Positions 27,008 to 57,780 of a stretch of 59,526 bases of DNA are shown here, in pieces. Made by a program: the position numbers and the translations under genes. The stretch comes from Bacteroidota bacterium (GTDB lineage Bacteria; Bacteroidota; Bacteroidia; Chitinophagales; Chitinophagaceae). Below the pieces are notes generated by a model, which was not told the origin of the DNA, ran no database searches, and saw only the letters and a program-made list of their open reading frames with translations. Location of the stretch: assembly GCA_030706635.1 (NCBI GenBank), contig JAUZOD010000020.1:1-59526 (forward strand), written 5' to 3'. Every line of letters starts with the position of its first letter. Within the stretch, counting starts at the first letter, position 1.

Positions 27008-27973
27008 ATGCATAGCCAATTCGGAATCGGTAATAAGCCTGCCTGGATGCAGTTGATCATTTTTGGTGGATTAGTCGGAATAATCCTTTTTTTGACCCTG
27101 GGCCTCGGCATTTCAATCGTGGCTCGCGTTAATGACCTCACGGTCCGGCAGATTGCTTCCATGAGACCCGAAGACTACGCCAGGCCGGAACTTGCCGGAG
27201 TTGTACGGGGTTTGCTGGTGGTGCAGTCCATCGGTCTGTTTATCCTGCCTTCGCTCTTTTTTGCTTTTTTGGCAGACTCCCGCCCCTTTGCTTTTGCAGG
27301 ACTAAAGGCCCCGGATAAAAAGTCATTTATTTTCTGGGGCGTGATCATTATTGTGGCTGCCTTTTTTATGGTAGAATGGCTTGCGCTGATCAACCAGGAA
27401 CTGGTGACCCATCTCCTGACGAAATCTGCAAGGGATTGGGTGGAAAAAGGAGAATCGGACACGGACAATACGTTGAAAAATATACTAACGCTGAAGAGTA
27501 CCGGCGATCTGCTGGAATCGGTGCTGCTGGTGGGTGTTTTGGCTGCTGTTGGAGAGGAGCTCTTTTTCAGGGGGATTCTTCAAAGACTGTTTATCCAGAT
27601 TTTTAAGAGTGCCTGGCCGGGCATTATTTTTACTGCGGCCCTGTTTTCTGCTTTTCACGGACAATTCATGGGGTTCATTCCCCGCATGATCCTGGGCATA
27701 ATCCTGGGCGCCCTGTATTGGTATAGCGGAAGTATAATACCCGCAATGATCGGCCATTTTATTTTTAACAGCGGGCAGTTGCTCCTGGTCTATTTTAAGG
27801 TGGTGGATCTGGAATCTACAAGCAATGCCAATACGCTCACAACTGTATTAGGCGTTGCTTCCCTGCTACTGGTTATTTTTCTGCTTAATTACATGCGTAA
27901 ACACTCGCAGACGACCTATTCGGGGATGTTTCCGGAGGCGGCGGAAGACGCTTCACGAGGGGTTGACGGTTGA
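27008..27973 (+). CDS. CPBP family intramembrane metalloprotease
   Basis: The 321-residue polytopic protein has about eight hydrophobic segments and the CPBP (Abi) motifs: EELFFRGILQR near residue 183 with the two Glu and Arg, FSAFHGQF with the His, and the third motif around GHFIFN. Such proteins are intramembrane proteases with varied roles, including CAAX-type processing and bacteriocin immunity. The start at MHSQFGIG (27008) is chosen over 26939 because the longer N-terminus is charged and unlike the family. The last four codons and the TGA stop lie in the first arm of a fold-back repeat at 27961. Confidence 0.85.
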   Translation: MHSQFGIGNKPAWMQLIIFGGLVGIILFLTLGLGISIVARVNDLTVRQIASMRPEDYARPELAGVVRGLLVVQSIGLFILPSLFFAFLADSRPFAFAGLKAPDKKSFIFWGVIIIVAAFFMVEWLALINQELVTHLLTKSARDWVEKGESDTDNTLKNILTLKSTGDLLESVLLVGVLAAVGEELFFRGILQRLFIQIFKSAWPGIIFTAALFSAFHGQFMGFIPRMILGIILGALYWYSGSIIPAMIGHFIFNSGQLLLVYFKVVDLESTSNANTLTTVLGVASLLLVIFLLNYMRKHSQTTYSGMFPEAAEDASRGVDG

Positions 27974-28072
27974 CAGTTGACGGTTGACCGACTTCAGGTG
28001 AATCATTACGCTTAAATTCAGTTAGGTTGTTGCGTCTAAAGTCGGTCAACCGTCAACTGTCAACCGTCAACC
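27961..28072. repeat. fold-back heptad element R1
   Basis: The left arm at 27961-27994 and the right arm at 28039-28072 are perfect 34-base inverted copies, each made of GTTGACG/GTTGACA-type 7-base units ending in CCGACTT. The 44-base centre carries the CAGGTG start of the core shared with other copies. The left arm contains the stop codon of the CPBP gene. The element ends 31 bases before the cdsA start. Confidence 0.9.
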
Positions 28073-28103
28073 AATAATTACATCATTTCCGTAACTTCAC
28101 TAA

Positions 28104-28979
28104 ATGTCACTTCAAACCGGTACATTCAGAACCAGGGCGCTCACATCGCTGGTATTTGTTGTGGTAATGCTTGTCGGATTACTCTGGAACGAATGGAGCT
28201 TTTTTGTCCTTTTTTCCATCATCCATTTCGGATGCTGGTATGAATATCAGAAATTACTCAGCAGGATAGATCCTGCTTACCGGGAGATCAGCGTTTTTCA
28301 ACGGTATGGCGTCATGATCGCCGGATGGTGCATCATGATGTATTGCAGCAAAGAAGGCAATGGCAAGCCGGATCTTTTGCTTCACAATGTGGGATTGTAT
28401 GGCAGCATCATTTTTCTTTTTATCCTGCCTGTTACAGAAATATTGTATGTACGCAAACCCCACGTGCACAATATGGGTTACTCTGCGCTGGGACTCATTT
28501 ATATTTCTTTAAGCCTGGGCTTATTACTTAACCTGCGCACCTATTATCCGGGACTCGCCCTGGAACCGGTAAATAAATTACTTGTGATCATGATCATCCT
28601 GAGTTTATGGGTGAATGATACCATGGCTTACCTGGTGGGTTCCCTGATCGGGAAAACACCCTTATCGAAAATTTCGCCAAAGAAAACCTGGGAAGGAACC
28701 ATCGGAGGCATCCTTTTCTCCATCGTGTTTATGGGTGTTGCCGGTTATTTCCTGAGCAGTGATTTTGAAATGCAGGCCGTCAGCCAATGGGTGCTCGTTG
28801 CTGCCATTGCCTCTGTTTCCGGAACCCTGGGGGATCTGCTGCAAAGTAAGCTGAAACGGATGGCAGATGTCAAGGATAGCGGCCAGATCATGCCCGGTCA
28901 TGGCGGGTTCCTGGACCGGTTCGACTCCCTGCTTTTTGCCACGCCATTCATTTGGCTATACATTACTATGTTTGCATAG
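28104..28979 (+). CDS. cdsA: phosphatidate cytidylyltransferase
   Basis: CdsA makes CDP-diacylglycerol from phosphatidic acid and CTP, the branch point to all membrane phospholipids. The 291-residue protein is polytopic with about eight hydrophobic segments. The C-terminal signature is split across SPKKTWEGTIGG and GDLLQSKLKRMADVKDSG, then MPGHGGFLDRFDSLLF, the conserved CTP/metal-binding end. The gene is followed by psd after 30 bases, so the two form a phospholipid operon. A fold-back element lies 31 bases upstream of the start. Confidence 0.96.
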   Translation: MSLQTGTFRTRALTSLVFVVVMLVGLLWNEWSFFVLFSIIHFGCWYEYQKLLSRIDPAYREISVFQRYGVMIAGWCIMMYCSKEGNGKPDLLLHNVGLYGSIIFLFILPVTEILYVRKPHVHNMGYSALGLIYISLSLGLLLNLRTYYPGLALEPVNKLLVIMIILSLWVNDTMAYLVGSLIGKTPLSKISPKKTWEGTIGGILFSIVFMGVAGYFLSSDFEMQAVSQWVLVAAIASVSGTLGDLLQSKLKRMADVKDSGQIMPGHGGFLDRFDSLLFATPFIWLYITMFA

Positions 28980-29009
28980 TTTTTCAGTCGGAACTTTACT
29001 TCTACATCA

Positions 29010-29666: not shown

Positions 29667-29712
29667 GTTGATATTAATGTGCTGATGTGGAAATGTGCTG
29701 ATGTGGAAAATG
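29667..29712. repeat. single-arm fragment of A+T-rich repeat type (R14)
   Basis: Starting one base after the psd stop, repeated TAATGTG, TGATGTGG and AAATGTG units form one arm like that of the 40638-40740 element. No matching right arm follows before the HAD gene, so this looks like a decayed or half copy. Confidence 0.55.
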
Positions 29713-29725
29713 AAGGCTCGGCGGT

Positions 29726-31291: not shown

Positions 31292-31294
31292 ATT

Positions 31295-31374
31295 TGTTGA
31301 CGGTTGACGGATGCCGGTTGACGGATCCGGGGTGTAAATTTGCACATGAAGACCGTCAACTATTAACTGTCAAC
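31295..31374. repeat. fold-back heptad element R2 (degenerate)
   Basis: The left arm has three GTTGACGG units with a GATGCC interruption. The right arm (31353-31374) has CCGTCAAC and CTGTCAAC units with imperfect pairing. The core reads GTGTAAATTTGCAC, like that of R11. It fills the gap between the SDR stop and batD, ending 4 bases before the batD ATG. Confidence 0.75.
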
Positions 31375-31378
31375 TGAA

Positions 31379-33277: not shown

Positions 33278-33305
33278 AAGTTACTCAGACCCTGATGCTT
33301 GGGGG

Positions 33306-33404
33306 CTGACGGTTGACAGTTGACGGTTGACGGTTGACGGTTGACGGATATCAGGTGCGAATTCCCACTTTAATACGGTCAACCGTCAACTGTCAACCGT
33401 CAAC
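33306..33404. repeat. fold-back heptad element R3
   Basis: The left arm (33306-33349) has six GTTGACGG/GTTGACAG units, the right arm (33376-33404) four. The outer four pair almost perfectly and two left units are unpaired. The core CAGGTGCGAATTCC matches other copies. It lies between the convergent batD and response-regulator genes. Confidence 0.88.
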
Positions 33405-33419
33405 TGAACTAAGCCAATC

Positions 33420-37380: not shown

Positions 37381-38328
37381 ATGCAATTCCCTTCCCCGGT
37401 TTCGTTGTCCTGGTTGTCTGAATTTCTTGGCGCCTCCCTCATGGGCGATGTAAAGGGATCCGCTACCGGTATCAATGAGATCCACAAAGTTGAAAAAGGC
37501 GATCTTGTTTTTGTAGATCATCCAAAGTATTATGAACAGTGCCTTCGTTCGGCGGCTTCTTTCATTATCATCAATCAGGTAGTGGAATGTCCGCCCGGCA
37601 AAGCCTTGCTGGTTGTTGACGAACCATTTGAAGCCTACCTGAAAATCGTAAAGCACTTTCGTCCTTTTGAAGGCGCTGTTCAACCGGTAAGCCCCGATGC
37701 ACAAATCGGAAAGACCTCTTTTGTTTATCCGGGGACCTTTATTGGTAACCACGTGCAGATCGGAGAAAACTGTCTGATCCATCCTAACGTAAGTATTCTC
37801 GATCATTGCATCATTGGCAATAATGTGATCATCCAGGCCGGAACCGTGATCGGATCGGATGCTTTTTATTATAACACGAAAAAGAACCGGGAGATATGGT
37901 ATAAAAAGATGCTGAGTTGTGGCCGGGTGCTTATTGAAGACGATGTAGAGATCGGAGCAGGTTGTACCATCGACCGGGGTGTTACCAGTGATACGGTGAT
38001 TGGAAAAGGATGCAGGCTGGATAATATGGTTCACATCGGCCACGATACTACCCTGGGAAAGAACTGTCTGATCGCAGCCCAGGTAGCTGTTGCCGGCGCC
38101 GTGGATATCGGGGATGGGGTCATCTTATGGGGACAGGTTGGTGTAAGTAAGACCCTCCGCATTGGTGATCATGCGGTGGTACTTGCCCAAAGTGGGGTGG
38201 GCAAAGATCTGGATGCGGGTAAAATCTATTTTGGATCCCCCTGCGATGATGCATCTGTAAAAAAACGGGAACTCGTTTGGGTTAAGCGGATACCGGAGCT
38301 GTGGAAGAAGGTGATGGAGAAAGGTTGA
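37381..38328 (+). CDS. lpxD: LpxD-like UDP-3-O-acylglucosamine N-acyltransferase
   Basis: The 315-residue protein has an N-terminal uridine-binding-like domain followed by left-handed beta-helix hexapeptide repeats from about residue 105 to 260 (VQIGENCLIHPNVSILDHC, DDVEIGAGCTIDRGV, DNMVHIGHDTTLGKNCLIAA). HIGHD contains the catalytic-type His of LpxD. It would add the second acyl chain to UDP-3-O-acylglucosamine during lipid A synthesis. Bacteroidota often carry more than one LpxD-like gene, so this copy may be the secondary one. The last codon and stop (GGT TGA) lie in a fold-back repeat arm. Confidence 0.82.
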   Translation: MQFPSPVSLSWLSEFLGASLMGDVKGSATGINEIHKVEKGDLVFVDHPKYYEQCLRSAASFIIINQVVECPPGKALLVVDEPFEAYLKIVKHFRPFEGAVQPVSPDAQIGKTSFVYPGTFIGNHVQIGENCLIHPNVSILDHCIIGNNVIIQAGTVIGSDAFYYNTKKNREIWYKKMLSCGRVLIEDDVEIGAGCTIDRGVTSDTVIGKGCRLDNMVHIGHDTTLGKNCLIAAQVAVAGAVDIGDGVILWGQVGVSKTLRIGDHAVVLAQSGVGKDLDAGKIYFGSPCDDASVKKRELVWVKRIPELWKKVMEKG

Positions 38329-38416
38329 TAGTGTATGGTGGATGGTATATGGTGGATGGAATTCAGGCGCGAATTCCTGCTTAAGGTCCATCCACCATAT
38401 ACCATATACCATCAAC
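38324..38416. repeat. fold-back heptad element R4
   Basis: The arms use TATATGGTGGATGG-type units. The inner 17 bases of the left arm (ending 38360) pair perfectly with the right arm (38387-38416). The core TTCAGGCGCGAATTCCTGC resembles R3 and R5. The left end includes the lpxD stop codon (TGA at 38326-38328). It lies between convergent genes. Confidence 0.88.
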
Positions 38417-40637: not shown

Positions 40638-40740
40638 GTTAATGTGGTAATGTGAAAATATGTAAATGTGTAAATGTAATACATCGCAGTAAACTGTCTT
40701 TTATTTCCACATTTACATATTTTCACATTATCACATTAAC
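40638..40740. repeat. fold-back element R13, A+T-rich arm type
   Basis: The left arm from 40638 (TAATGTGG, TAATGTG, AAAATATG, TAAATGTG units) and the right arm at 40707-40740 pair over about 33 bases with one mismatch. The right arm supplies the TAA stop of the upstream minus-strand gene (40736-40738). The left arm sits 4 bases from the start of the next. Confidence 0.9.
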
Positions 40741-41790: not shown

Positions 41791-42174
41791 ATGGAAAAGA
41801 AAATCATCAATACCACTGATGCTCCGGCGCCCATCGGTCCGTATAGTCAGGCTGTACAGGTAGGCCAAATGCTATTCCTCTCAGGGCAGGTTGCCATTAA
41901 TCCGCAGACCGGAAATCTGGAAACAGCGGATATTCAAACAGAGACCCACCAGGTGATGCATAATCTAAAGGCCGTATTGCAGTCGGCGGGCATAGATTTC
42001 AGTCATGTTGTTAAAACGACGATTTTTTTGTCGGACATGGCGCTCTTTTCTTCCGTGAATGAATTGTATGGAAAATATTTCACCGGCAATTTTCCCGCCA
42101 GGGAAACGGTGGCCGTGAAGACGCTTCCGAAAAATGCAAATGTGGAGATCAGTATGATTGCCATTTTGGGTTGA
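41791..42174 (+). CDS. ridA: RidA family enamine/imine deaminase
   Basis: RidA hydrolyses reactive 2-aminoacrylate and similar enamines made by PLP enzymes. The 127-residue protein has IINTTDAPAPIGPYSQAVQV, LFLSGQVAINPQTGNL, HVVKTTIFLSDMALFSSVNE and FPARETVAVKTLPKNANVEI, containing the Arg that binds carboxylate. The length is normal. The stop codon (GGG TTG A; TGA at 42172-42174) lies in a fold-back arm, with the convergent kbl stop in the other arm of the same element. Confidence 0.94.
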   Translation: MEKKIINTTDAPAPIGPYSQAVQVGQMLFLSGQVAINPQTGNLETADIQTETHQVMHNLKAVLQSAGIDFSHVVKTTIFLSDMALFSSVNELYGKYFTGNFPARETVAVKTLPKNANVEISMIAILG

Positions 42175-42262
42175 CCGTTGACCGTTGATGGTTGACCGTT
42201 GACCGACTTCAGGTGCGAATTCGCAATAAAACTCCATCAACCATCAACCATCAACCATCAAC
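42169..42262. repeat. fold-back heptad element R5
   Basis: The left arm has GTTGACCG and one GTTGATGG unit, and the right arm four CCATCAAC units, so pairing has C:A-type mismatches between unit types. The core CTTCAGGTGCGAATTCGC is nearly the reverse complement of the R8 core. It carries the TGA stops of both convergent genes, ridA (42172-42174) and kbl (42258-42260). Confidence 0.88.
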
Positions 42263-43451
42263 TTTTCTGAAGCACCCCCAATTCCTTTCCCACTTTCACA
42301 AATGCTTCCACAGCCTTATCCAGGTGCTTTTTTTCATGTGCTGCACTCAGTTGCACCCGGATCCGGGCCTTTCCTTTCGGCACCACGGGAAAGAAAAAGC
42401 CAATGACATAAATACCTTCTTTCAGAAGTTTGGCGGCGAACTCCTGGGCGATCACAGCATCATACAGCATGATGGGGACAATCGGATGATCGCCCGGTTT
42501 GATCTCAAAACCGGCTTCGGTCATTCTCTCCCGGAAATATTTGGTATTAAACTCCAGACGGTCACGAAGGGTTGTGCTTTCCGCGAGCATATCCAGAATG
42601 GCTATGGAAGCTCCGACAATGGAAGGCGCGAGGGTGTTAGAAAACAAGTATGGCCGGCTTCGCTGACGAAGCAGTTCGATAATTTCCTTGCGGCCGCTGG
42701 TAAATCCGCCATTGGCGCCGCCCAGGGCCTTGCCCAGGGTTCCGGTAATTAGGTCTATCCGGCCCATGACATGGCGGTATTCGTGGGTGCCACGCCCCGT
42801 CTTTCCCAGAAATCCGGAGGAATGGGATTCATCACTCATCACAATGGCCCCGTATTGATCGGCCAGATCGCAGATCTTGTCTAACTGGGCAATGGTTCCA
42901 TCCATGCTGAAAGAACCGTCGGTTACGATAACCCGGCTCCGGGAAGATTGGGCCTGTTGCAATTGCAGCTCCAGGTCTTCCATATCATTGTGTTTATACC
43001 GGAGTCTTTTTGCTTTGCACAGCCTGACTCCGTCAATAATGGAAGCATGGTTCAGCTCATCTGATATAATGGCGTCTTCTTCAGCAAATAAAGGTTCGAA
43101 AACGCCTCCGTTGGCATCAAAAGCGGCTACATATATTATAGCGTCCTCCATACCGAGGAAGGCCGATATTTTTTTTTCCAGCTCTTTGTGGATGTCCTGG
43201 GTGCCACAGATGAAGCGGACGCTGCTCAGTCCGTATCCGCGTTCGTCCAGGGCTTTATGGGCCGCCGCGATTACGCGGGGATCGGAAGAAAGCCCCAGGT
43301 AGTTATTGGCGCAAAAATTCAACACGGTTTCCCCGTTTACGGTAATCTCAACCCCCTGGCTGCTGCCAATCACCCTTTCTGTTTTAAACAAACCCGAAGA
43401 ACGGATTTCTTCCAGCTGGCCGGCGATCCGGGATACAAAAGACTCATTCAT
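42258..43451 (-). CDS. kbl: glycine C-acetyltransferase (2-amino-3-ketobutyrate CoA ligase)
   Basis: This 397-residue PLP enzyme of the alpha-oxoamine synthase family cleaves 2-amino-3-ketobutyrate with CoA to glycine and acetyl-CoA, in threonine breakdown. [67 protein letters not shown] and [14 protein letters not shown] (PLP lysine) match Kbl closely. Serine palmitoyltransferase, a related Bacteroidota enzyme, lacks the CGTQDIH pattern. The start at 43451 (MNESFVSR) is chosen because the longer frame reads through a fold-back repeat ([10 protein letters not shown]). tdh is not nearby. Confidence 0.95.
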
Positions 43452-43467
43452 GTGCAATATTTTTGTA

Positions 43468-43551
43468 GATGGTTGTTGGTGTATGGTAGATGGGCTTTTG
43501 TCACAAATTCCCACATGGGAGCCATTAACCATCCACTATCTACCATCCACC
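43468..43551. repeat. fold-back heptad element R6
   Basis: The left arm from 43468 (GATGGTTGTTGGTGTATGG) and the right arm (to 43551, ACCATCCACTATCTACC) pair imperfectly. The core holds ACAAATTCCCACATGGGA. Unlike most copies it lies between divergent genes, kbl and the sigma factor, so any effect there would be on promoters or leaders. Confidence 0.8.
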
Positions 43552-43628: not shown

Positions 43629-44111
43629 ATGACGGCTGAGGACTACAATGATTGTGTAAAGCAATATGCAGACGGGCTCTACCGGTTCATGCTGAAATCC
43701 ACCAGGCATGTGGAAGATGCGCGCGACCTGGTACAATCCGCTTTTGAGAAACTATGGGAGCACCGGGGGGATGTGAATGCCCTGAAAGGCAAGAGCTACC
43801 TCTTTACCATTGCTTATCATAAGATGATAGATCAGAACCGGAAAAGCCGGAGGATGGAATTCAGGGAAATACTCCCCGAATCAGCAGCGGAGTCCAGACC
43901 GGCGCCTCATTTAAGAAAGGTACTGGAAGAAGCGCTGGACAGATTAAATGAAAGGCAGCGATCCCTGGTTCTGCTAAAGGATTACGAAGGATATTCTTAT
44001 GAGGAGATCGGCGGCATAACCGGCCTCAATGAAAGCCAGGTAAAAGTAACCCTGCACCGGGCCCGGGTCCAATTAAAACAATATCTGGTAAGTGTGGAAA
44101 ATGTGCTTTAA
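43629..44111 (+). CDS. ECF-type RNA polymerase sigma factor
   Basis: This 160-residue sigma-70 family protein has region 2 (YADGLYRFMLKSTRHVEDAR then DLVQSAFEKLWEHR) and region 4 (LNERQRSLVLLKDYEGYSYE then EIGGITGLNESQVKVTLHRAR). No region 3 is present, as in extracytoplasmic-function factors. The next gene, 14 bases on, looks like its anti-sigma factor, and a beta-barrel follows 13 bases later, so the three form one operon ended by the terminator at 46028. The signal it responds to is not known. Confidence 0.92.
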   Translation: MTAEDYNDCVKQYADGLYRFMLKSTRHVEDARDLVQSAFEKLWEHRGDVNALKGKSYLFTIAYHKMIDQNRKSRRMEFREILPESAAESRPAPHLRKVLEEALDRLNERQRSLVLLKDYEGYSYEEIGGITGLNESQVKVTLHRARVQLKQYLVSVENVL

Positions 44112-44125: not shown

Positions 44126-45127
44126 ATGACCATTAACCGAAACAATTACGAAGAATATTTCCTCCTGTACATCGACAGGGAATTGGGCGATGCGGAGCGG
44201 CAAATGGTCGAGGATTTTGTTCGTCGTCATCCGGATCTTGAAAAGGAACTCGCCGCACTGAGGCAAACCGTTGTCCTTCCGCCGGATCTGGTATTTGAAC
44301 ATAAAGAGGCGCTGCTCCGGGATGAAAAAGAACGGCGGTTGTTTCCTCTGTATCTATGGCGTATTGCAGCAGCACTCCTCATCGTGCTGGCCGGTGGCTG
44401 GTTTCTGATGATGGCCGGGAAAACCGGGAAACAGGATCAGCCACCAGCAGATTCCCTGAAAATAGCCGTTAAAAAGGATGCAAAACATGTAAAGCCGTCA
44501 ACAGAACTGAAAACGGAAAACAGGGAGAGTTCCGCGTCCGCTAAAAAGACTTATGCAGACTTCCCGCGGTCTGGCACTTTAAGGAAAACCGGAGTTCCTG
44601 TGATCCGGCAGCAACCCGGATCGGATTTGCTTTCCCCGGATTCAAATCCGGTACAACAGAAATTAATTGCGGCGAAACAAAACCACCGCAATCCCGCCGA
44701 AACAACCAATCCGCATCCTGCAGGTGATTTTCCGCAAACGGCAGCAACTGCGAATCAGGATAATCGGCAACCTTCGATGGATCTTCCTGAAATAGCGCGG
44801 AATGAAATGTTATCTGGAACTACCATTCCACAGTCAGATCAAACGGGCAAATCGGAAATTTTAAATCCATCAACTATAAACCCGCCTTCGCCTGACTCCG
44901 ATGAGCGAAGTGCCTTTTCAAAGGGCTCCGGCGGGAAAGGCCAACCACCATCAACCATCAACGATCAACCATCAACCGCTCAAAGCATCCTGGTATTTGA
45001 CAGTAAAAACAAAACCGTTTCCGGGTTTTTTAAAAAACTATTGTCGGGTCCGCCGGAAGATGCCGTAGCAGATAATCATAGGAAAAGGGTAAGTGTAAGC
45101 GTATTTCAATTCAATCTTAAAAAATAA
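44126..45127 (+). CDS. putative anti-sigma factor with embedded repeat
   Basis: The 333-residue protein has an N-terminal helical domain (YEEYFLLYIDRELGDAERQM), a motif common in Bacteroidota anti-sigma proteins. One transmembrane helix follows near 77-97 (LWRIAAALLIVLAGGWFLMM), then a long low-complexity periplasmic region and a basic C-terminus. Residues about 247-284 (STINPPSPDSDERSAFSKGS, ending PSTINDQPST) are encoded by heptad-repeat DNA at 44865-44977, read in the orientation free of stop codons. This looks like a repeat element inserted in frame into the linker. The role is inferred from its place after the sigma factor. Confidence 0.75.
   Translation: MTINRNNYEEYFLLYIDRELGDAERQMVEDFVRRHPDLEKELAALRQTVVLPPDLVFEHKEALLRDEKERRLFPLYLWRIAAALLIVLAGGWFLMMAGKTGKQDQPPADSLKIAVKKDAKHVKPSTELKTENRESSASAKKTYADFPRSGTLRKTGVPVIRQQPGSDLLSPDSNPVQQKLIAAKQNHRNPAETTNPHPAGDFPQTAATANQDNRQPSMDLPEIARNEMLSGTTIPQSDQTGKSEILNPSTINPPSPDSDERSAFSKGSGGKGQPPSTINDQPSTAQSILVFDSKNKTVSGFFKKLLSGPPEDAVADNHRKRVSVSVFQFNLKK
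44865..44977. repeat. heptad and G+C-rich repeats inside the anti-sigma gene (R17)
   Basis: CCATCAAC-type units stand on both sides (44865-44880 and 44945-44977) of a G+C-rich stretch (44881-44936, CCCGCC to GGCGGG) that resembles the 41.65 kb repeat. Both heptad blocks have the same orientation, so this is not a fold-back. The whole segment is in frame, without a stop. Confidence 0.7.
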
Positions 45128-46712: not shown

Positions 46713-48671
46713 TTATATTTTCCCCATTTTAATTTCTTCCACTACTGCGGGATCCGTTAAGGTGCTGATATCACCCAGCTTATCCATTTCGCCTTCGGCA
46801 ATTTTGCGCAGGATGCGCCGCATGATTTTTCCACTGCGTGTTTTTGGCAACCCGGTTACAAACTGAATTTTATCCGGCTTGGCAATGGAACCGATAATTT
46901 TGGTCACCGTCGCGGCCACACTGCTTTTATCGAGGTTATTTTCTTTGCTTTCACTACCGAGGATCACAAATGCATAGATGCCCTGCCCCTTGATATCATG
47001 TGGATAACCCACCACGGCACTTTCCACTACATCCGGATGCATGTTGATGGCATTTTCCACTTCTGCCGTACCAATGCGGTGACCACTTACATTCAACACA
47101 TCATCCACCCTGCCGGTGATGCGGTAATTGCCCTCGGCATCCCGGAACGCACCATCTCCCGTAAAATACATATCCGGATAAGTGGCAAAATAATTCAGCC
47201 GGCATCTCTCATGATCCCCATAGGTGGTACGGATGATGGAGGGCCAGGGAAAACGGATACAAAGGTTTCCGGTAACGGTTGCACCGGTAGCGCCTTTATG
47301 AAATACGCCATCTTTCGCCGCATCCGATCCCGGTACGGCATGACCATTTTCATCTACAAGCACCGGGCGCACCCCCGGCAAAGGCAGCGTGGCAAAAGCA
47401 GGTTTTCCCTGGCTGATTCCGGCGAGATTGGAGATCATGATGCCCGCAGTCTCCGTTTGCCACCAGGTATCTACAATGGGACATTTATGTTTTCCAACAT
47501 GTTCATCATACCAGTGCCACGCTTCTTCATTAATGGGTTCTCCCACCGTTCCGAGCACTTTTAGAGAACTCAGGTCTTTATTTTTTAACGGCTCGAGACC
47601 ATAGCCCATCAGACTGCGAATGGCCGTGGGCGCGGTATAGAGAATGTTCACTTTATATTTATCCACGATATCCCAGAATCTTCCCGCATCGGGCCAGGAA
47701 GGAATTCCTTCGAACATAACCGTCGTGGCGCCGGCACATAATGGTCCGTATACCGTGTAGCTGTGACCGGTGATCCAGCCGATATCTGCCGTACAGAAAT
47801 AAACCTGCCCGGGCTGATACTGGAAAACGTTCACGAAACTATAGGTAGTAAAAATCATGTATCCTGCATTGGTATGCACCACGCCTTTGGGCTTGCCGGT
47901 GGAGCCGGAAGTATAGAGAATAAACAGGATATCTTCTGCGTCCATGCTTTCGGCCGTCCTGTCTTTTATACCCTGTGCATCTACTTTTTTGATCTCATCG
48001 TGCCACCAGATATCCCTTCCTTCCTTCATACTGATCTCGTTGCCCAGGCGTTTCAGCACGATCACTTTTTTCACATGCCCTGTATTTTGTAAAGCCTCAT
48101 CAATCGTATCTTTCAACAGAATATCCTTGCTGCCGCGGTGTCCGCCATCCGCAGTGATCACCAGGCTGCATTGGGCATCGTTAATCCGGTCGGCAATGCT
48201 CTGGGCTGAATAGCCGCCAAAAACCACGGAATGGATGGCGCCCATCCGTGCGCAGGCCAGCACGGCAATGGCGGCTTCGGGAACCATCGGCATATAAATG
48301 CAAATGCGATCGCCTTTTTTTACCGAATTATTTTTCAGTACCTGCACGAAACGGCAAACCTCTTCATGCAGTTCTTTAAAACTCAGGATGCGGTTCTTCT
48401 CCTTCGGATCATTCGATTCCCAAATAATGGCCGGGTGGTCGCCCTTATCTGCCAGGTGGCGGTCCAGGCAATTCTCCGTGATGTTCATTTTTGCACCCTG
48501 AAACCATCTCACCCTGGGCTCTTTAAAATTCCATTCCAACACCTTGTCCCATTTTTTCTTCCAGGTAAAATGTTCTGCAATCCCGCTCCAGAAATTCTCG
48601 GGCTGATCGATGCTTTTTTTATACTCGGAAAGATACTCTTCGAAAGAATGGATCTGATAGGGAAAGCTCAT
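46713..48671 (-). CDS. acs: acetyl-CoA synthetase (acetate-CoA ligase)
   Basis: The 652-residue AMP-forming enzyme makes acetyl-CoA from acetate. ILYTSGSTGKPKGVVHT is the AMP-binding P-loop, DTWWQTETAGIM the acetate/AMP site, YFTGDGAFRDAEGNYRITGR the hinge, and KTRSGKIMRRILRKIA contains the Lys that is acetylated in related enzymes. Length and motifs match E. coli Acs (652). The 5' region holds 13 tandem GTTGACA units that end 8 bases before the start codon. This may affect translation or transcription in a copy-number-dependent way. Confidence 0.96.
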   Translation of the reverse strand: MSFPYQIHSFEEYLSEYKKSIDQPENFWSGIAEHFTWKKKWDKVLEWNFKEPRVRWFQGAKMNITENCLDRHLADKGDHPAIIWESNDPKEKNRILSFKELHEEVCRFVQVLKNNSVKKGDRICIYMPMVPEAAIAVLACARMGAIHSVVFGGYSAQSIADRINDAQCSLVITADGGHRGSKDILLKDTIDEALQNTGHVKKVIVLKRLGNEISMKEGRDIWWHDEIKKVDAQGIKDRTAESMDAEDILFILYTSGSTGKPKGVVHTNAGYMIFTTYSFVNVFQYQPGQVYFCTADIGWITGHSYTVYGPLCAGATTVMFEGIPSWPDAGRFWDIVDKYKVNILYTAPTAIRSLMGYGLEPLKNKDLSSLKVLGTVGEPINEEAWHWYDEHVGKHKCPIVDTWWQTETAGIMISNLAGISQGKPAFATLPLPGVRPVLVDENGHAVPGSDAAKDGVFHKGATGATVTGNLCIRFPWPSIIRTTYGDHERCRLNYFATYPDMYFTGDGAFRDAEGNYRITGRVDDVLNVSGHRIGTAEVENAINMHPDVVESAVVGYPHDIKGQGIYAFVILGSESKENNLDKSSVAATVTKIIGSIAKPDKIQFVTGLPKTRSGKIMRRILRKIAEGEMDKLGDISTLTDPAVVEEIKMGKI

Positions 48672-48679: not shown

Positions 48680-48770
48680 GTTGACAGTTGACAGTTGACA
48701 GTTGACAGTTGACAGTTGACAGTTGACAGTTGACAGTTGACAGTTGACAGTTGACAGTTGACAGTTGACA
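48680..48770. repeat. (GTTGACA)13 tandem repeat upstream of acs
   Basis: The segment is exactly 91 bases, 13 perfect GTTGACA units, with no inverted partner arm. It lies 8 bases upstream of the acs start codon. On the coding strand it reads TGTCAAC. It is the same unit as in the fold-back arms but expanded in tandem, which makes slipped-strand length changes likely. Confidence 0.97.
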
Positions 48771-48827
48771 ATGGGGGATAAAATTAGGGATTAAATTTTT
48801 TATATGTAATAGAAATTTGAATTGCTT

Positions 48828-48860
48828 CTCATCTCCACATTTTCACATTTTCAAATTCTT
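48828..48860. repeat. single-arm A+T-rich repeat fragment (R16)
   Basis: CTCCACATTTTCACATTTTCA-like units (here ATTTTCACATTTTCAAATTC) resemble the right arm of the A+T-rich fold-back type at 40707. No left arm is present nearby. It is in the leader of the sugar transporter gene, about 50 bases before its ATG. Confidence 0.45.
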
Positions 48861-48908
48861 CATTGTCCATTTTTCCCTATCTTATATCCTCAAATATTAA
48901 CTGCTGAA

Positions 48909-50234
48909 ATGAAAATAAATATATTTCTGTTTCGCTGTACGATGATCGCGGCGCTGGGCGGTTTTTTATTCGGATTTGAAACCGCTGTAATTTCCGGCGC
49001 GGAGAAAACCATTCAGCACTTGTGGTCCCTGACCGCCTTCTGGCAGGGATTTACCGTTGCGGCAAGTCTTATCGGCACGGTAATCGGCGCGGCCATCGCT
49101 GGCTTACCGGCGCAAAAATGGGGAAGAAAAAAAGTATTGATGGCGATCGCCCTGATGTACCTCCTCTCTGCCATCGGCTGTGCGCTCACCTCCACCTGGT
49201 TATTATTTATCACGTCCCGGATGATCGGGGGTATCGCTGTTGGCGCATCCTCTGTGGTCGGTCCGATGTATATTTCAGAACTGGCGCCGGCTTCGGTGCG
49301 CGGCCGCCTGGCCGGAATGTTTCAGCTGAATATTGTGGCCGGTATTTTCATTGCTTATCTCACCAATTTTTTATTTGTGGGTCTGGGAGACGAGGCCTGG
49401 CGCTGGATGCTGGGCATCATGGCCATACCTGCCGGACTGTTCGCCCTCCTGCTCCGGGGCATCCCGGAAAGTCCGCGCTGGCTGATCTTAAATAATCGCG
49501 ATGCCGAAGCCGCAGCTATTTTTGCCCGCACCGGAGAGCCGGATGCCTTTAGCCTGATCCGCGAAGAGCACGCGCTCTCGAAGCTCGGTACAAAAGAAAG
49601 TCTGTTCAACGGAAAATTCCGGAAACCCATTTTATTCGCCATGTTGCTGGCCATGTTCAACCAGCTCTCCGGAATCAATGCGATCCTGTACTATGCGCCG
49701 CGCATTTTTGAAATGGCCGGTTTTGATAAGAACCATGCTTATCTGCTGCCAGTATATATTGGTGCGGCGAATCTGTTGTTCACGTTCCTGGCCATGACCA
49801 TCATTGATAAAGTGGGCAGAAAAACCTTGTTGATTACCGGGGCCATCGGCATGATCATCTTTCTTGCATTAACCGCCGGCGCATTCAGCAATACAGGACA
49901 TGCAAACAGCATGGTGCTCGTTTATCTGCTGGGCTTCATCGCTTTCTTTGCCTTTTCCCAGGGCGCGGTCATCTGGGTATTCATTTCAGAGGTCTTTCCA
50001 AATTCTGTCCGATCCCAGGGGGGATCGCTGGGCAGCTTCACACACTGGATCATGGCAGCAATTATTTCCTGGACCTTCCCGATCATCGTGGAAGGAAGCG
50101 CCAACGGCGGGTTTTATTCCTTTATATTTTATAGTCTCATGATGCTGGCCTCCCTGATCTTTATCTGGCGCGTGATGCCGGAAACGAAGGGGCGGACGCT
50201 GGAGGAGATTCAGAAGGATTTGGGGATTGCTTAG
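48909..50234 (+). CDS. sugar porter (MFS, XylE/galactose-proton type)
   Basis: The 441-residue inner-membrane transporter has 12 predicted helices. It carries the sugar-porter signatures GFLFGFETAVISGAEK at the first helix, RMIGGIAVGASSVVGPMYIS, PESPRWLIL after helix 6, NQLSGINAILYYAP and DKVGRKTLL. PETKGRTLEEI at the end is the MFS sugar-porter C-terminal motif. It probably imports a monosaccharide by proton symport. The start at 48909 gives a family-like N-terminus; 29 further upstream codons lie in a repeat-like leader. Confidence 0.93.
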   Translation: MKINIFLFRCTMIAALGGFLFGFETAVISGAEKTIQHLWSLTAFWQGFTVAASLIGTVIGAAIAGLPAQKWGRKKVLMAIALMYLLSAIGCALTSTWLLFITSRMIGGIAVGASSVVGPMYISELAPASVRGRLAGMFQLNIVAGIFIAYLTNFLFVGLGDEAWRWMLGIMAIPAGLFALLLRGIPESPRWLILNNRDAEAAAIFARTGEPDAFSLIREEHALSKLGTKESLFNGKFRKPILFAMLLAMFNQLSGINAILYYAPRIFEMAGFDKNHAYLLPVYIGAANLLFTFLAMTIIDKVGRKTLLITGAIGMIIFLALTAGAFSNTGHANSMVLVYLLGFIAFFAFSQGAVIWVFISEVFPNSVRSQGGSLGSFTHWIMAAIISWTFPIIVEGSANGGFYSFIFYSLMMLASLIFIWRVMPETKGRTLEEIQKDLGIA

Positions 50235-50242
50235 CGCTGTGC

Positions 50243-50346
50243 ATGGTATTTAGTGGATGGTATATGGTATATGGTGGATGGCAGATGGAGTTTTATTGTA
50301 AATTCGCATCTGAATATCCATATACCATCCACCATATACCATCCAC
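50243..50346. repeat. fold-back heptad element R8
   Basis: The arms are of TATATGGTGGATGG type, with the left arm longer by about two units. The core (50288-50316, AGTTTTATTGTAAATTCGCA) reads as the reverse complement of the R5 core, so the centre is directional and inverted here relative to R5. It lies between the sugar transporter and gldA, ending 12 bases before the gldA start. Confidence 0.88.
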
Positions 50347-50358
50347 GGCCCCACAACA

Positions 50359-52865: not shown

Positions 52866-52951
52866 GTTGATGGTATATGGTGGATGGTAGATGGGCTCAG
52901 ATGCGGATTTGCCGATAAGATCCATCCACCATCCACTATATACTATCCACC
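52866..52951. repeat. fold-back heptad element R9
   Basis: The left arm (52866-52894) and right arm (52920-52951) use TGGATGG/TATATGG units. The core CTCAGATGCGGATTTGCCG matches R5 and R8 with changes. The rest of the gap to 53090 holds no feature I can name; a promoter for the next gene is likely there. Confidence 0.85.
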
Positions 52952-53389: not shown

Positions 53390-54037
53390 ATGACCCGGAA
53401 ACAGCGTTACGATTTTGTTATTGCCTGGTTCAGCGAACACGCGCCTGAGGCAGAAACAGAACTCATTTACGACAGTCCCTTTCAATTGCTGGTATCGGTT
53501 ATCCTGTCTGCGCAATGCACAGATAAGCGTGTAAACCTGACGACACCCGCCATTTTCTCCCGTTTCCCAAATCCGGAATCCCTCGCCAAAGCGGAATTCG
53601 ACGAGCTCTTCCCCTACATTAAAAGCATCTCTTACCCCAACAACAAAACCAAACACCTGATCGGCATGGCAAAAATGCTGGTAAAGGATTTTCATGGCCA
53701 GGTACCGCTTACAGTTGCTGAGCTTATCCGGCTACCCGGTGTAGGCAGAAAAACCGCTAACGTGATCACGTCGGTGGTAGACGGGCAGCCGAATATGGCC
53801 GTGGATACCCACGTGTTCCGGGTGTCCGCACGTATCGGTCTTACCATCGGAGCCAAAAGCCCCCTGGCCGCCGAAAAACAACTTATTCAATTTATTCCGA
53901 CAGAACTGATTCACAAGGCGCACCACTGGCTGATCCTGCACGGGCGCTATGTTTGTGTGGCGAGAAATCCGAAATGCGGGATCTGCGGATTAAAACCGGC
54001 TTGTAAGTACTATCAGAAGAATTTTAATGGTGGATAG
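53390..54037 (+). CDS. nth: endonuclease III
   Basis: This 215-residue base-excision repair enzyme is a DNA glycosylase/AP lyase for oxidised pyrimidines. VSVILSAQCTDKRVN, the helix-hairpin-helix LPGVGRKTANVITS (Lys120-like catalytic Lys in GRKTAN), and VDTHVFRVSARIGLT with the catalytic Asp are all present. The 4Fe-4S cluster Cys are in CVARNPKCGICGLKPAC. The last codons (AAT GGT GGA) and the TAG stop lie in a fold-back repeat arm. Confidence 0.96.
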   Translation: MTRKQRYDFVIAWFSEHAPEAETELIYDSPFQLLVSVILSAQCTDKRVNLTTPAIFSRFPNPESLAKAEFDELFPYIKSISYPNNKTKHLIGMAKMLVKDFHGQVPLTVAELIRLPGVGRKTANVITSVVDGQPNMAVDTHVFRVSARIGLTIGAKSPLAAEKQLIQFIPTELIHKAHHWLILHGRYVCVARNPKCGICGLKPACKYYQKNFNGG

Positions 54038-54117
54038 TATATAGTGGATGGTATATGGACCTAATGTACCGTCCCACCAAGAATTTCCATCCACCATCCA
54101 CCATATACCATCCACCC
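54027..54117. repeat. fold-back heptad element R10
   Basis: The left arm (54027-54059, GGTGGATAGTATATAGTGG) and right arm (54087-54117, CCATCCACCATCCACC then ATATACC) pair over most of their length. The left arm includes the nth stop TAG (54035-54037). The core is divergent, with GAATTTCC as the only familiar part. It ends 20 bases before the next start. Confidence 0.85.
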
Positions 54118-54137: not shown

Positions 54138-56456
54138 ATGGACTACCGAACTACCTTCCGCTCCTTCATCAACAGTCACTATCTGAGTGAGGGGATCCGC
54201 ATTACCATAGGGCTTACCCTGCCTGCGCTGATCGGAGCCTGGCTGCATCAGGAAGCCATAGGCATTACCATGTCGCTGGGTGCGAGCTGCGTCATCATGG
54301 TTGACAATGCCGGCCCGGTTCATCACCGCCGCAATGCCATGCTCATTTGCACGCTCGTCATTTTTATTGTGGCCCTCCTGACCGGGTTTATCGCTGTTTC
54401 CACAGCCGGCACCGGTATGCTGATCGCGGTATTTTGTTTCCTGTTTCCGATGATCGGCGTATACGGGGCACGCGCCGGGTCCATTGGCCTGGCGGCTTTA
54501 TTCATCATGGTGTTGAATCTGGAAGAGCGTATCCAGGGCTGGAATGTGCTGCTCAATGCAGCCTATGTTGCCTTCGGCGCAATCTGGTACACACTGCTCA
54601 GCCTCTCGCTTTACAGTTTTCGTCCTTTTAAAGTCACGCAACAGGCGCTGGGGGATTGTATCCAGTCCACCGCAGAATATCTGCTCGCACGATCCGCTTT
54701 CTATAATAAAAATCCGGACTTCGATCAAATCTATTCACACCTGATTGATAAGCAGGCGGAAATTCATGAAAAGCAGAACCTGGTGAGGGAACTGCTTTTC
54801 AAGAGTCGCGATATCGTAAAAGAAACCACCAATACGGGCCGCGTTTTACTGCTCATCTTTCTGGACATCATCGATCTCTTCGAACGCGTAATGAGTACGC
54901 AGCCTGACTATAGACTCCTTCATCAATACTTTGATGAATCCGGAATACTCGGAAAATTCAAGTCCCTTCTCCTGGTTGTTTCGGAAGAACTGAATGAAAC
55001 AGGCATTGCGGTGAAAAGCGGGAGACCGTATTCCTTAAATGAACGGATGGAGATCATGCTGCGGGAATTGAAAGACGATTTTGACCAGCTGCGGGATGAT
55101 AAAAGAAATGCATCCAATGTGGAGGGGTTTATTGCCATGCGGAACGTGCTGGATGGATTGGAAGAAATTGTTTCCCGCCTGATCACCATTCAGCAGTACA
55201 GTTCATACGATCTGAAAGTAAATAAAAGCGATCTGGGGGAAGTGGATTACGACCGCTTCGTAACCCACCAGGATATCGACTGGAAACTGCTGATTGATAA
55301 TGTCAACTGGAAGTCCAACAGCTTTCGTCATGCGGTGCGCGTTTGTGTAGCCACAACCACCGGATTCATCGTTTCCCAATTTTTCCCCCTCGGGCACAGT
55401 TACTGGATATTGTTAACCATCATTGTGATCCTGAAACCCACTTACGGCCTCACCAGGAAGCGGAATTATGACCGGGTGCTGGGAACCATTGCCGGCGCCG
55501 CCATCGCCGCGCTGATACTCTACTTTATAAAAGACCGGCAGGTGATTTTTGGTTTCATGATTCTGCTCATGATCCTGGCGTATAGTTTTATGCGTTTGAA
55601 ATATCTGGTTTTTGTTACACTGATGACGCCCTATATCCTGATCCTGTTTTACCTGCTTAATCCGCATGATTTCAGAAACGTGGTGGGCGACCGGTTGCTG
55701 GATACGGCCATCGGATCGGGGATTGCCTTTCTGAGCAATGCTTTTATCGCCCCCGCATGGGCGAGAGAGGAGTTTACATCCTACCTCATGCAGATGATAC
55801 AGGCAAACAAGAATTATTTCCGTGACGTGGCAGTTTCTTTTGTTGGCAGGGACGTGGGGATTGTCCAATATAAATATTCACGTAAAATGGCTTATGTGGC
55901 GCTCGCCAATGTAACGGATGCCCTGAACAGAATGCTGTCTGAGCCAAAAAGGAAACAAAAGAATGCGACGGACTTTCACCAGTTCGTCGTGCTTAATTAT
56001 ATGCTGGCTTCGCATACCGCGACGCTCGCTTCTTATGCCAGGCGGGGAGATCCGATACCCCGGGATAAGGACTATCAGTCCGTGATAGATGCCGTGCTCG
56101 GCATTTTGTCGAAGGCCTGCCATCTGCTCGTTCGGGATTCCACCCGCCTGGAAATAAAACCGGAAGGGATTAATAGATCGTCCGGAACGGAACAGGTTCC
56201 GGATGATCTGACACTGCCGGGGAAATCTTCAGGGCAGGAGCCTGTTCCGAAAGAAGCTGCCGCCAAAGATGGATTACGGAAAATGAATGACCGGGTAACC
56301 GCTATGATACAGAAACGCAAGGCGGAACTGGAACAGGGCATCCTGGAAAGCCCCACCCGCAGACAGCTGACCCTGGTAAAATCCGTGAACGACCAGTTTA
56401 ATTTCATCACAAAAATCTCTGAAGATCTGCTTAAGGTGGCGGGCAAGTGGAAATAA
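54138..56456 (+). CDS. FUSC family membrane protein (YccS/YhfK-like)
   Basis: The 772-residue protein has two membrane halves: about six helices in residues 20-150 (IGLTLPALIGAW, CTLVIFIVALLTGFIAVS) and again at about 415-540 (AVRVCVATTTGFIVSQF, SYWILLTIIVILKPTYG, YDRVLGTIAGAAIAALIL). Large soluble helical domains lie between and after them. This is the FUSC pattern (fusaric-acid-resistance-like/YccS), with LKPTYGLTRKRNYDRVLGT as the typical motif. The substrate is unknown; aromatic acid efflux is known for some relatives. Repeat elements flank it on both sides. Confidence 0.88.
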   Translation: MDYRTTFRSFINSHYLSEGIRITIGLTLPALIGAWLHQEAIGITMSLGASCVIMVDNAGPVHHRRNAMLICTLVIFIVALLTGFIAVSTAGTGMLIAVFCFLFPMIGVYGARAGSIGLAALFIMVLNLEERIQGWNVLLNAAYVAFGAIWYTLLSLSLYSFRPFKVTQQALGDCIQSTAEYLLARSAFYNKNPDFDQIYSHLIDKQAEIHEKQNLVRELLFKSRDIVKETTNTGRVLLLIFLDIIDLFERVMSTQPDYRLLHQYFDESGILGKFKSLLLVVSEELNETGIAVKSGRPYSLNERMEIMLRELKDDFDQLRDDKRNASNVEGFIAMRNVLDGLEEIVSRLITIQQYSSYDLKVNKSDLGEVDYDRFVTHQDIDWKLLIDNVNWKSNSFRHAVRVCVATTTGFIVSQFFPLGHSYWILLTIIVILKPTYGLTRKRNYDRVLGTIAGAAIAALILYFIKDRQVIFGFMILLMILAYSFMRLKYLVFVTLMTPYILILFYLLNPHDFRNVVGDRLLDTAIGSGIAFLSNAFIAPAWAREEFTSYLMQMIQANKNYFRDVAVSFVGRDVGIVQYKYSRKMAYVALANVTDALNRMLSEPKRKQKNATDFHQFVVLNYMLASHTATLASYARRGDPIPRDKDYQSVIDAVLGILSKACHLLVRDSTRLEIKPEGINRSSGTEQVPDDLTLPGKSSGQEPVPKEAAAKDGLRKMNDRVTAMIQKRKAELEQGILESPTRRQLTLVKSVNDQFNFITKISEDLLKVAGKWK

Positions 56457-56493
56457 GCCCATTATTTTCGTAATTTGTAACCCCGTTTGAATT

Positions 56494-56622
56494 GTTGATG
56501 GTTGGTAGTTGATGGTTGATGGGCTTTACGTGTAAATTAGCACGTAGAAAAAGCCGCTCTCCCATTGGAGAATTTCGCCTGAAGTCCATCAACCATCAAC
56601 CATCAACTATCAACCATCAACC
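56494..56622. repeat. fold-back heptad element R11
   Basis: The left arm (56494-56523, GTTGATGG and GTTGGTAG units) pairs with the right arm (56582-56622), which has one extra unit and one mismatch. The long core (about 58 bases) is similar to R12: GTGTAAATTAGCAC, then TCTCCCATTGGAGAATTTC. It ends 7 bases before the next ATG. Confidence 0.9.
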
Positions 56623-56629
56623 AAAAAAA

Positions 56630-57655
56630 ATGAAAAGAAGAAATTTTATTAAACACAGCACACTCGCTGCAGGAGGAACACTGATTATGCATAACTTATT
56701 CGCTGCAAAAAAAGAGAAAGTATATGGTTATAATGGCATGACCTATACCCTGGATACTTCCTGGTCTAAAGCCAATGCCAAGGATCTTCCGGTGAACGAT
56801 TGCCATGAAATGGTTCAGGACAGCAGGGGCCGGATCATCCTGCTGACCAATGAAACAAAAAACAATATCCTGATCTACAATACAGACGGAAAAGTATTGG
56901 ACAACTGGGGCCATCTGTTCCCGGGAGCCCACGGACTGACCCTGCATAACGAAAACGGGACAGAATTTCTATATATAACCGATACGGTTAAACACCAGGT
57001 GTATAAAACCACGATGGATGGAAAGGTGTTGCTGACGATCGATCCTCCGTTGGATGCGGGCATCTACAGCAAGACCGAGGAATTTGTGCCTACGGAAACG
57101 GTGATCGATGCCGAAGGGGACATTTTTATTGCCGACGGATACGGCGCACAATATGTTTTGCGGTACGACCGAAACGGAAAATTGAAGCATTATTTTGGCG
57201 GTCGCGGAGAAGGCGATACCCACCTGGATAATGCTCATGGCATCTGCTTTGACACGCGGAACAATCTGCATTCGCTGCTGGTGACAGACAGAACCAGGAA
57301 TTGCTTCAAACGGTTTGATACAGACGGCAAATTGCTGGAGGTGATCAAACTTCCTGGTGCCTGTGTGTGCCGGCCGGTGATCAAGGACGATCATCTGTAT
57401 GCAGCCGTGCTTCGCTCGCCCAATCTGGATGCCGTCGGAACAGGGTTCGTTACCATCCTCGACAAACACAATAAGGTAGTCAGCAATATTGGCGGAAGCG
57501 AGCCGCAATATGTGGATGGCGTTCTGCAACCGATGAGCCAGACAGATAAGATCTTTGTACATCCTCATGACGTGTGCATTGACCGCGATGATAATATCTA
57601 TGTAGCCCAGTGGGCGTCCGGGAAGGTTTATCCTTACAAATTGACCAGAGCGTAG
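56630..57655 (+). CDS. NHL-repeat beta-propeller protein with Tat-like signal
   Basis: The 341-residue protein starts MKRRNFIKHSTLAAGGT, a twin-arginine (RRxF) export signal. Beta-propeller repeats of NHL type follow: DGKVLDNWGHLFPGAHGLTL, FIADGYGAQYVLRYDRNGKL, HLDNAHGICFDTRNN, FVHPHDVCIDRDDNIYVAQW. Relatives are annotated as peptidylglycine monooxygenase-like or 6-bladed propellers, but the copper-enzyme domains are not present here. It is probably periplasmic. The start at 56630 is the first after the repeat element; the longer frame reads repeat DNA ([12 protein letters not shown]). Confidence 0.85.
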   Translation: MKRRNFIKHSTLAAGGTLIMHNLFAAKKEKVYGYNGMTYTLDTSWSKANAKDLPVNDCHEMVQDSRGRIILLTNETKNNILIYNTDGKVLDNWGHLFPGAHGLTLHNENGTEFLYITDTVKHQVYKTTMDGKVLLTIDPPLDAGIYSKTEEFVPTETVIDAEGDIFIADGYGAQYVLRYDRNGKLKHYFGGRGEGDTHLDNAHGICFDTRNNLHSLLVTDRTRNCFKRFDTDGKLLEVIKLPGACVCRPVIKDDHLYAAVLRSPNLDAVGTGFVTILDKHNKVVSNIGGSEPQYVDGVLQPMSQTDKIFVHPHDVCIDRDDNIYVAQWASGKVYPYKLTRA

Positions 57656-57659
57656 GAAA

Positions 57660-57780
57660 GGTTGATGGTTTATGGTTGATAGTTGATGGATCTTATGTGT
57701 AAGTTAATACAGAGAAAGGCCGTTCTCCCGTTGGAGAGTTTCACTGAAGTCCATCAACTATCAACCATAAACCATCAACC
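57660..57780. repeat. fold-back heptad element R12
   Basis: The arms at 57660-57690 and 57750-57780 are perfect 31-base inverted copies, including a unique TTTATGG unit found in both arms and nowhere else in the family. The core resembles R11 (TCTCCCGTTGGAGAGTTTC). It begins 5 bases after the NHL gene stop and ends 31 bases before the next start. Confidence 0.92.

Follow-up and report, generated by a model that had tools for sequence, protein, structure and literature searches.

The window analysed here is the whole of contig JAUZOD010000020.1 (59,526 nt; contig C76 of G000, a 4.58-Mb draft genome) from a member of the Chitinophagaceae in the Bacteroidota. Among 80 enolase loci of titled records, a set that may lack records of this genome or of very near ones, the closest enolase genes are those of a Bacteroidetes metagenome-assembled genome (84%) and a Chitinophagaceae one (83%), with 78-80% for three Ferruginibacter records. 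It raises the question of what makes and maintains a series of fold-back elements in its intergenic regions, each composed of two inverted arms of short tandem units around a core. RAYT transposases or a function in RNA are the explanations often given for short palindromic repeats of bacteria. Inverted-repeat and tandem-repeat scans, together with inspection of the raw sequence, located all twelve fold-backs of the original prediction in the region 27961-57784, and eleven of them belong to one family (family A) and the twelfth to a family with octad units (family B). We tentatively propose, with a confidence that stops short of even, that these elements represent a dispersed non-coding palindromic repeat family that is kept self-complementary by copying at the DNA level and is tolerated at gene ends. 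The family is not a REP or REPIN, nor is it a canonical intrinsic terminator.

The unit types had originally been considered to differ between copies. The GTTGACG, GTTGATGG and TATATGGTGGATGG types proved to form one family with one grammar (GTNNAYG, including GTTGACG, GTTGATG, GTGGATG and GTATATG) and one core, of which 37 copies could be aligned over 80 columns without gaps, while the TAATGTG-like arms were indeed found to be separate and to constitute the octad family. A family A element of ~85 bp consists of 3-5 heptads, a ~26-bp asymmetric core near ACTTTAATTGCGAATTCGCACCTGATAT, and 3-5 inverted heptads. The alignment was derived from 49 elements gathered from three species (G000, G006 and G019), after three elements of B type, seven with an odd spacer and two out of register were set apart. 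When 62 hairpins of G000, with arms of 18-53 bp and loops of 2-105 (most >20), were subjected to a simple sorting, 33 were assigned to A, 23 to B and 6 to neither; at least one further family of the same design, B, is present in the same genome as A, and the B cores, as judged by eye, have no common sequence. The A core is found in both orientations (25 versus 21 of 46; relative to transcription, 9 versus 5 of 14), and the best core identity within a genome was 86% among the 49 copies compared.

The repeats are numerous well beyond the window. The pattern GTTGACGGTTGACG with up to three mismatches matched the window 50 times against 3.5 expected, GTNNAYGGTNNAYGG had 344 matches in the genome against 24 for a reversed control, and 30 hairpins were found in 459.5 kb of G000 against none after one local shuffle. 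The covariance model R1 recovered all eleven A elements of the window, of which those at 33322, 38334 and 54033 belonged to its alignment and therefore match by construction; the two faintest, at 31296 and 43465, were identified by R1 together with tandem-repeat and pattern evidence. In a search of G000 and its relatives with R1, further copies were found in G000 and in ten other genomes. The matches by strand numbered at least 142 in G000, at least 142 in G006 and 117 in G019, and because the elements among the matches listed mostly match on both strands, these counts are about twice the number of places, which would be ~70 or more, 70 or more, and ~58, respectively. Lower strand counts were obtained for G026 (44), G017 (23), G025 (22), G014 (18), G022 (9), G005 (8), G020 (5) and G015 (3), so that 11 of 33 genomes of the genus, several of which are incomplete, had R1 matches and 22 had none. 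Many copies with a common sequence, as is expected of a MITE or another dispersed repeat, were thus found. When six joined proteins of eight genomes were placed in an unrooted tree, G003 grouped with the carriers G017 and G005 with a support of 100, and yet G003 has no R1 match, one hairpin in 107 kb, and no element in 29 compared gaps; G010, also devoid of R1 matches, groups with the carrier G014. A blastn search with one element in each of the plasmid and phage collections gave no match.

The complementarity of the arms suggests that pairing originates at the DNA level. The A arms, in the set gathered for complementarity, are 90.4% paired, compared with 27-40% when the partners are shifted by one column, and contain 102 double-change cells against 40.8 in shuffles (none of 500 shuffles reached this number). 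The core pairs less than in every one of the 500 shuffles, and for this reason we consider it an asymmetric sequence that is present in both orientations. An RNA stem under selection would be expected to show a preference for G-U mismatches. Among the arm mismatches of 52 codirectional elements (31 from G000, 11 from G006, 6 from G019 and 4 from G017), 31 were G-U, 28 were A-C on the sense strand, and 63 were others. Furthermore, the 8 nt following the stems contained 2.10 T compared with 2.26 in the adjoining flank, and five or more T were found on only 6 of 92 sides. Scans with a terminator consensus stayed at the chance level, although they allowed loops of 3-8 only, which places whole elements beyond their scoring, and the sole terminator-like match at an element is located inside a core. 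The lack of a G-U bias and of a T-tract following the stems leads us to favour a DNA-level cause of the pairing, and the missing T-tract rules out a canonical intrinsic terminator. A test of whether each arm is best matched by its own partner was discarded: in a set selected for complementarity, no more than 11 of 33 elements of family A and 8 of 23 of family B had their own arm as the single best match, because arms of one subtype are interchangeable.

The locations of the elements point to tolerance at the ends of genes. Gene ends were assigned by a codon-usage gene caller that we built, and the 62 hairpins of G000, at least four of which are without heptads or octads, come from 857 kb. Thirty-four are in codirectional gaps, 16 in convergent and 9 in divergent gaps, one is in a gene, and two are at edges. 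In the codirectional and convergent gaps, 45 of 50 hairpins are located within 37 nt of a stop codon, 15 of them overlapping the gene end, and the other five are 182-807 nt away. The density was highest in convergent gaps (16 per 13.4 kb), compared with 34 per 55.6 kb in codirectional and 9 per 31.2 kb in divergent gaps, densities that are not genome averages because the stretches were partly picked for pattern matches. Arms read inward stop more frames than arms read outward, by 84 to 0 with 8 ties in the 92 arms of G000, by 38 to 2 in G006, 19 to 2 in G019 and 13 to 5 in G017, with the reverse in a few arms of G026 (0 to 1) and G020 (0 to 2). Since a single family contributes most of the arms, a fair count has to be made by unit family, and it was 10 to 2 with 3 ties among 15 (p 0.04). 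Stop codons in several frames suggest how gene ends tolerate such elements.

Comparison of orthologous gaps showed sites that are shared with sister species as well as sites that are missing from them. By eye, 7 of 11 A sites of G000 are common to G006 or G019, and four are not, namely 42170-42262 (compared with G006 only), L078 1883, L129 3430 and L129 15790; the element at 43465 seems shared by position (L081 5697-5770). When the cores at six shared sites were scored in both orientations, a reversed pair of species was observed at four. For instance, at L129 13294/13409, where the left flank of 30 nt is kept in the three species, the arms change from the GTTGAC to the GTTGAT type and the core is reversed, and at 54029-54116 the arms of G019 are of the GTTGAYG type, with the core in the opposite orientation to that of G006. 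Arms and core differ together at L129 13294, L129 6664 and 54029-54116, and neither differs much at 50236-50349, where the cores of G006 and G019 lie on the same strand and are the best matches. In rank tests with pools of 21, 13 and 6 other cores, from which the G000 core of L129 6664 was excluded, orthologous cores on the same strand were the top-ranking copy of the other genome in 11 of 18 comparisons and reversed ones in 1 of 10. On account of these rank tests we weakly prefer replacement from other copies over flipping of the core in place. Of the origins suggested in the original prediction, that of templated structural elements fits best, given that the arms co-vary, that there is no G-U bias, and that both arms can be of another type at shared sites.

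How such elements could be maintained may be outlined as follows. Through ectopic gene conversion, or through template switching of replication at the DNA hairpin, copies or parts of copies would overwrite each other in both orientations, and the same copying would also hold both arms Watson-Crick matched. Slippage by 7-8 nt would fix the length of the arms and homogenise their units. SbcD is a subunit of SbcCD, a nuclease that cuts DNA hairpins, and its scarcity throughout the genus would permit palindromes without explaining which species carry them. The elements would persist mostly at the 3' ends of genes, where an insertion may be tolerated and where arms reading inward would stop several frames, and the hairpin at the 3' end of the mRNA would then be a by-product and not a selected function. 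What is said here of ectopic copying, of template switching and of SbcCD cleaving hairpins is general background, drawn in part from a review (PMC7999016), and does not come from data on these species.

Several observations weigh against this explanation. The elements were gathered for complementarity, so that the level of pairing and part of the covariation were selected, and the pairs changed on both sides numbered 14, which 41 of 500 shuffles reached. Divergent gaps hold 9 of the 62 hairpins (one of them non-heptad), arrays with a single arm exist (29676 and 48680 in the window, and G006 at the gap of 40638), and G015 has 86 heptad-pattern matches, against 8 for a control, but no hairpin in 43 kb sampled, its heptads perhaps being arrays without inverted partners. 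At the shared sites, the reversal at L129 6664 is weak, the G000 core being so different that both scores are negative; the three pairwise labels of core orientation at 54029-54116 are mutually contradictory; and at 38323-38416 the ortholog on the same strand ranked only 3 of 14 and 15 of 22. At 52866-52951, the arms of G019 are of the GTTGATG type, unlike those of G000, and its core is on the same strand; in G006 the arms resemble those of G000 and the core is reversed relative to both G000 and G019. This independent change of arms and core speaks slightly against DNA-level copying and slightly for a mobile element. Of the 33 genomes of the genus, two have SbcD above the cut-off, neither of them G000 and both without R1 matches, compared with 8 of 14 controls, but when matches below the cut-off are included, the numbers become 16 of 33 and 13 of 14. 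Its scarcity also covers the element-free G003, G010, G013 and G002, and, being genus-wide, loss of SbcD is insufficient as the cause of presence or absence of the elements. Nor does the explanation account for the step of 7 or 8 nt. Finally, we infer gene conversion or template switching from the sequences of three species, and the first dispersal of copies would require an insertion step in addition.

A non-autonomous mobile element resembling a MITE or REPIN, moved in trans by an unrecognised or lost transposase, is a credible competitor that we nevertheless consider unlikely. It would account for the many dispersed copies with one core, for the G000 copies at L078 1883/1889 and L129 15790/15804, where G006 and G019 have short gaps, and for the site at 27961, which corresponds to gaps of 36 bp in G003 and G017. 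However, the heptad remnant that G019 retains at the site in L078 is explained equally well by deletion and by non-insertion, and a best core identity of 86% gives no sign of a recent burst. In 105 hairpins from three genomes, with boundaries placed to within a few bases, direct repeats in the flanks that would indicate target-site duplication were not in excess (for k=4, 2 observed and 2.9 expected; for k=5, 1 and 0.6), and k=3, 4, 5, 6, 8 and 9 were all at the chance level. The earlier observation that no RAYT gene is nearby can be extended to the whole of G000, in which the Y1_Tnp domain (PF01797) has no match; in the genus it is present in 23 of 33 genomes, comprising 4 of 11 R1-positive and 19 of 22 R1-negative ones, several genomes being incomplete, and it is therefore absent from 7 of the 11 carriers. 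Thus, of the proposed mobility, the dispersed copies, the shared core and the short orthologous gaps speak in its favour, while the lack of direct repeats and of RAYT, the core identity and the 7 of 11 shared sites do not. An origin templated by reverse transcriptase was ruled out for the main carriers: RVT_1 (PF00078), present in 13 of 33 genomes of the genus, had no match in 8 of 11 R1-positive genomes, including G000, G006, G019, G017, G005 and G014.

A broader proposal, which is speculative and which we rate as rather unlikely, is that a DNA process indifferent to sequence, with a step size of 7 or 8 nt, is at work in many Bacteroidota, where it both builds the inverted arrays of gene ends and rewrites them, independently of RAYT and reverse transcriptases and permitted by the scarcity of SbcCD; families A, B and those with other units would be its successive products. 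In samples from G000 and nine relatives, in which each arm of an element was counted separately, 63 intergenic arrays had period 7, 28 had period 8, one had 9 and one had 11, so that 91 of 93 had period 7 or 8, and none had a period of 4-6, 10, 12 or 13. Inside called genes of the same samples, nine arrays had period 7, one had 6 and one had 9. In 80 enolase loci (925.6 kb), 15 arrays had period 7, 9 had period 8 and 8 had other periods, and fold-backs with periodic arms were found in Spirosoma oryzae (L224) and a Ferruginibacter metagenome-assembled genome (L163), among others; the design is therefore not an artefact of one draft genome. A strict period of 7 or 8 across unlike unit sequences points to a physical step size that can be tested.

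Flip-flop of the core in place between the inverted arms, similar to that in chloroplasts, would account for the reversed cores, but we consider it improbable. The reversed pairs at four of six shared sites, one of them weak, and the nearly equal frequency of the two core orientations are consistent with it, and in chloroplasts small inversions of 5-50 bp are reported between inverted repeats of 11-24 bp (PMC12928735). The stem-loops described there similarly have a short spacer between inverted repeats and both orientations, but the available text describes no dispersed copy family and no heptad arms. Moreover, cores of G006 and G019 on the same strand scored 17-21 and reversed ones 10.5 and 12.5, and reversed orthologs ranked first in only the one comparison mentioned above; flipping in place, promising from the orientation scores, was thus weakened by the rank tests.

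Functional RNA hairpins at mRNA 3' ends, acting as terminators or exonuclease barriers (bidirectionally in convergent gaps) and selected for pairing, are the least probable of the explanations weighed here: the position right behind stop codons, the highest density in convergent gaps, the strong covariation of the arms and the very stable folding of six elements as RNA (z-scores of -6.1 to -12.6) would all agree with them, but the missing T-tract, terminator matches without excess, the lack of a G-U bias, the occurrence of some copies in divergent gaps and the absence of elements from the 29 comparable gaps of G003, which has no R1 match, weaken this alternative and with it the bidirectional terminators of the original prediction.

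No described family with heptad arms and a separate core had been recognised originally, and none with inverted heptad or octad arms and a core was found in the open-access literature, as far as its available parts go (subscription papers were not covered); Rfam had no match in the window at the gathering score. The comparisons that follow are likewise limited to the available parts of the sources. REP and REPIN sequences associated with RAYT (PMC3116915) are similar in being non-coding, extragenic, inverted doublets with predicted hairpins in many copies, but the stems here are tandem runs of 7 or 8 nt and G000 is without Y1_Tnp, and this anatomy and the absence of a RAYT gene rule out identity. 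The GTAG and CGTC repeats (PMC3733652) are also palindromic extragenic families, CGTC being found in Bacteroidetes apparently without a dedicated transposase; in them the stem measures 5-13 or 8-9 bp, the loop 2-20 or 4-5 bp, and a tetranucleotide tag is left unpaired, in contrast to the arms of 18-53 bp and mostly longer loops found here, where the tag itself was not searched for. TAACTGA and other intergenic heptamers (PMC4679880) form heptad arrays with a stop-bearing unit, sometimes of mixed heptamers, in five Bacteroidetes among others, but they are direct repeats without a core, which in the main species mostly precede start codons and include one inverted case. The foldback transposons Tetris, Tm1 and Galileo share long, internally repetitive inverted ends and a variable structure, but are eukaryotic and have transposase-bearing relatives, of which none was found here, no search for them having been made. 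Three Bacteroidota appear in a table of a REP survey (PMC12306157), in whose main text no terms for heptads or tandem units were found. Inverted repeats are reported to be generally over-represented between genes in a survey of structural DNA patterns (PMC4060949). As a large family without RAYT in its genome, T-tract or wobble bias, and absent from one species grouped with carriers, the repeats described here lend themselves to a natural comparison of how palindromes are made and cleared.

Fold-back elements and one-armed arrays of the window
Position	Strand	Feature	Units, arms and core	Setting	Evidence
27961-28072		A fold-back	34-bp perfect arms, GTTGACG/A units, long core	codirectional gap	inverted-repeat scan, R1
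29676-29709	+	B-type octad array	AATGTGCT GATGTGGA x2, no inverted partner	convergent gap	
31296-31378		A fold-back	right arm degenerate		R1 48.6 bits
33305-33406		A fold-back	GTTGACG arms	convergent gap	R1 90.6 bits (in model alignment)
38323-38416		A fold-back	GTGGATG/GTATATG arms	convergent gap, after lpxD-like gene	inverted-repeat scan, R1
40638-40740		B fold-back	AATGTGNN octad arms (also AATTTGNN), core not conserved	codirectional gap	
42170-42262		A fold-back	arms differ: GTTGATG on the right, mainly GTTGACC on the left	convergent gap	R1 81.4 bits
43465-43547		A fold-back	diverged arms	overlaps upstream end of ORF 42258-43532(-)	R1 57.5 bits
44947-44977		one-armed heptad array	CATCAAC reading, no stop codons in reading direction	inside ORF 44126-45127	
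48680-48770	+	array of 13 GTTGACA units, all perfect	no inverted partner	divergent gap	
50236-50349		A fold-back	GTGGATG/GTATATG arms		inverted-repeat scan, R1
52866-52951		A fold-back		directly after stop codon	inverted-repeat scan, R1
54029-54116		A fold-back		overlaps stop of gene 53390-54037	inverted-repeat scan, R1
56491-56623		A fold-back	long-core subtype		inverted-repeat scan, R1
57656-57784		A fold-back	long-core subtype, 35-bp perfect arms	first base after stop codon	

In addition to the twelve fold-backs, the window contains three arrays without an inverted partner. The stop codon of the upstream gene falls in an arm of the element at 27961-28072. The element at 43465-43547 is probably located in a divergent gap before the gene at 43629(+), because the codon-usage caller places the start of ORF 42258-43532(-) at 43451. 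The long-core A subtype, with an inner stretch resembling GGAGAGTTTCAC, comprises the elements at 56491-56623 and 57656-57784 and one at L132 14385-14491. The array at 48680-48770, on which R1 had a weak match of 32 bits, lies between 46713-48671(-) and a sugar-transporter-like gene at 48822-50234(+), and each of its units contains TTGACA once the next base is counted; G006 has a different heptad array at this gap.

The content of orthologous gaps differs from relative to relative. The element at 38323-38416 is common to G000 and G006. The gap of 40638-40740 contains a one-armed octad array in G006 and is 11 bp long in G003 and G017, and that of 33305-33406 is 30 bp in G003 and holds an octad fold-back in G017, which also has a TAATTGT fold-back at the gap matching 29676-29709. 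In general, fold-backs in orthologous gaps of G017 and G005 are built from TAACGCG, AGTATAAG, TAATTGT, AAGCCTA or TGTGGTAG units. The sharing of hot sites by G000 and G017 with unlike units was striking by eye, and was dropped after 6 of 9 versus 12 of 30 gaps gave p 0.26, in a test whose detection overlooked the window elements at 29676 and 31296. In G014, the gaps that correspond to those of the window hold mostly non-periodic palindromes. The G014 loci L092 and L093 contain long near-perfect palindromes, several with arms of 35-51 bp and mostly without a periodicity of 7 or 8, and some of them occupy gaps that hold elements in the window.

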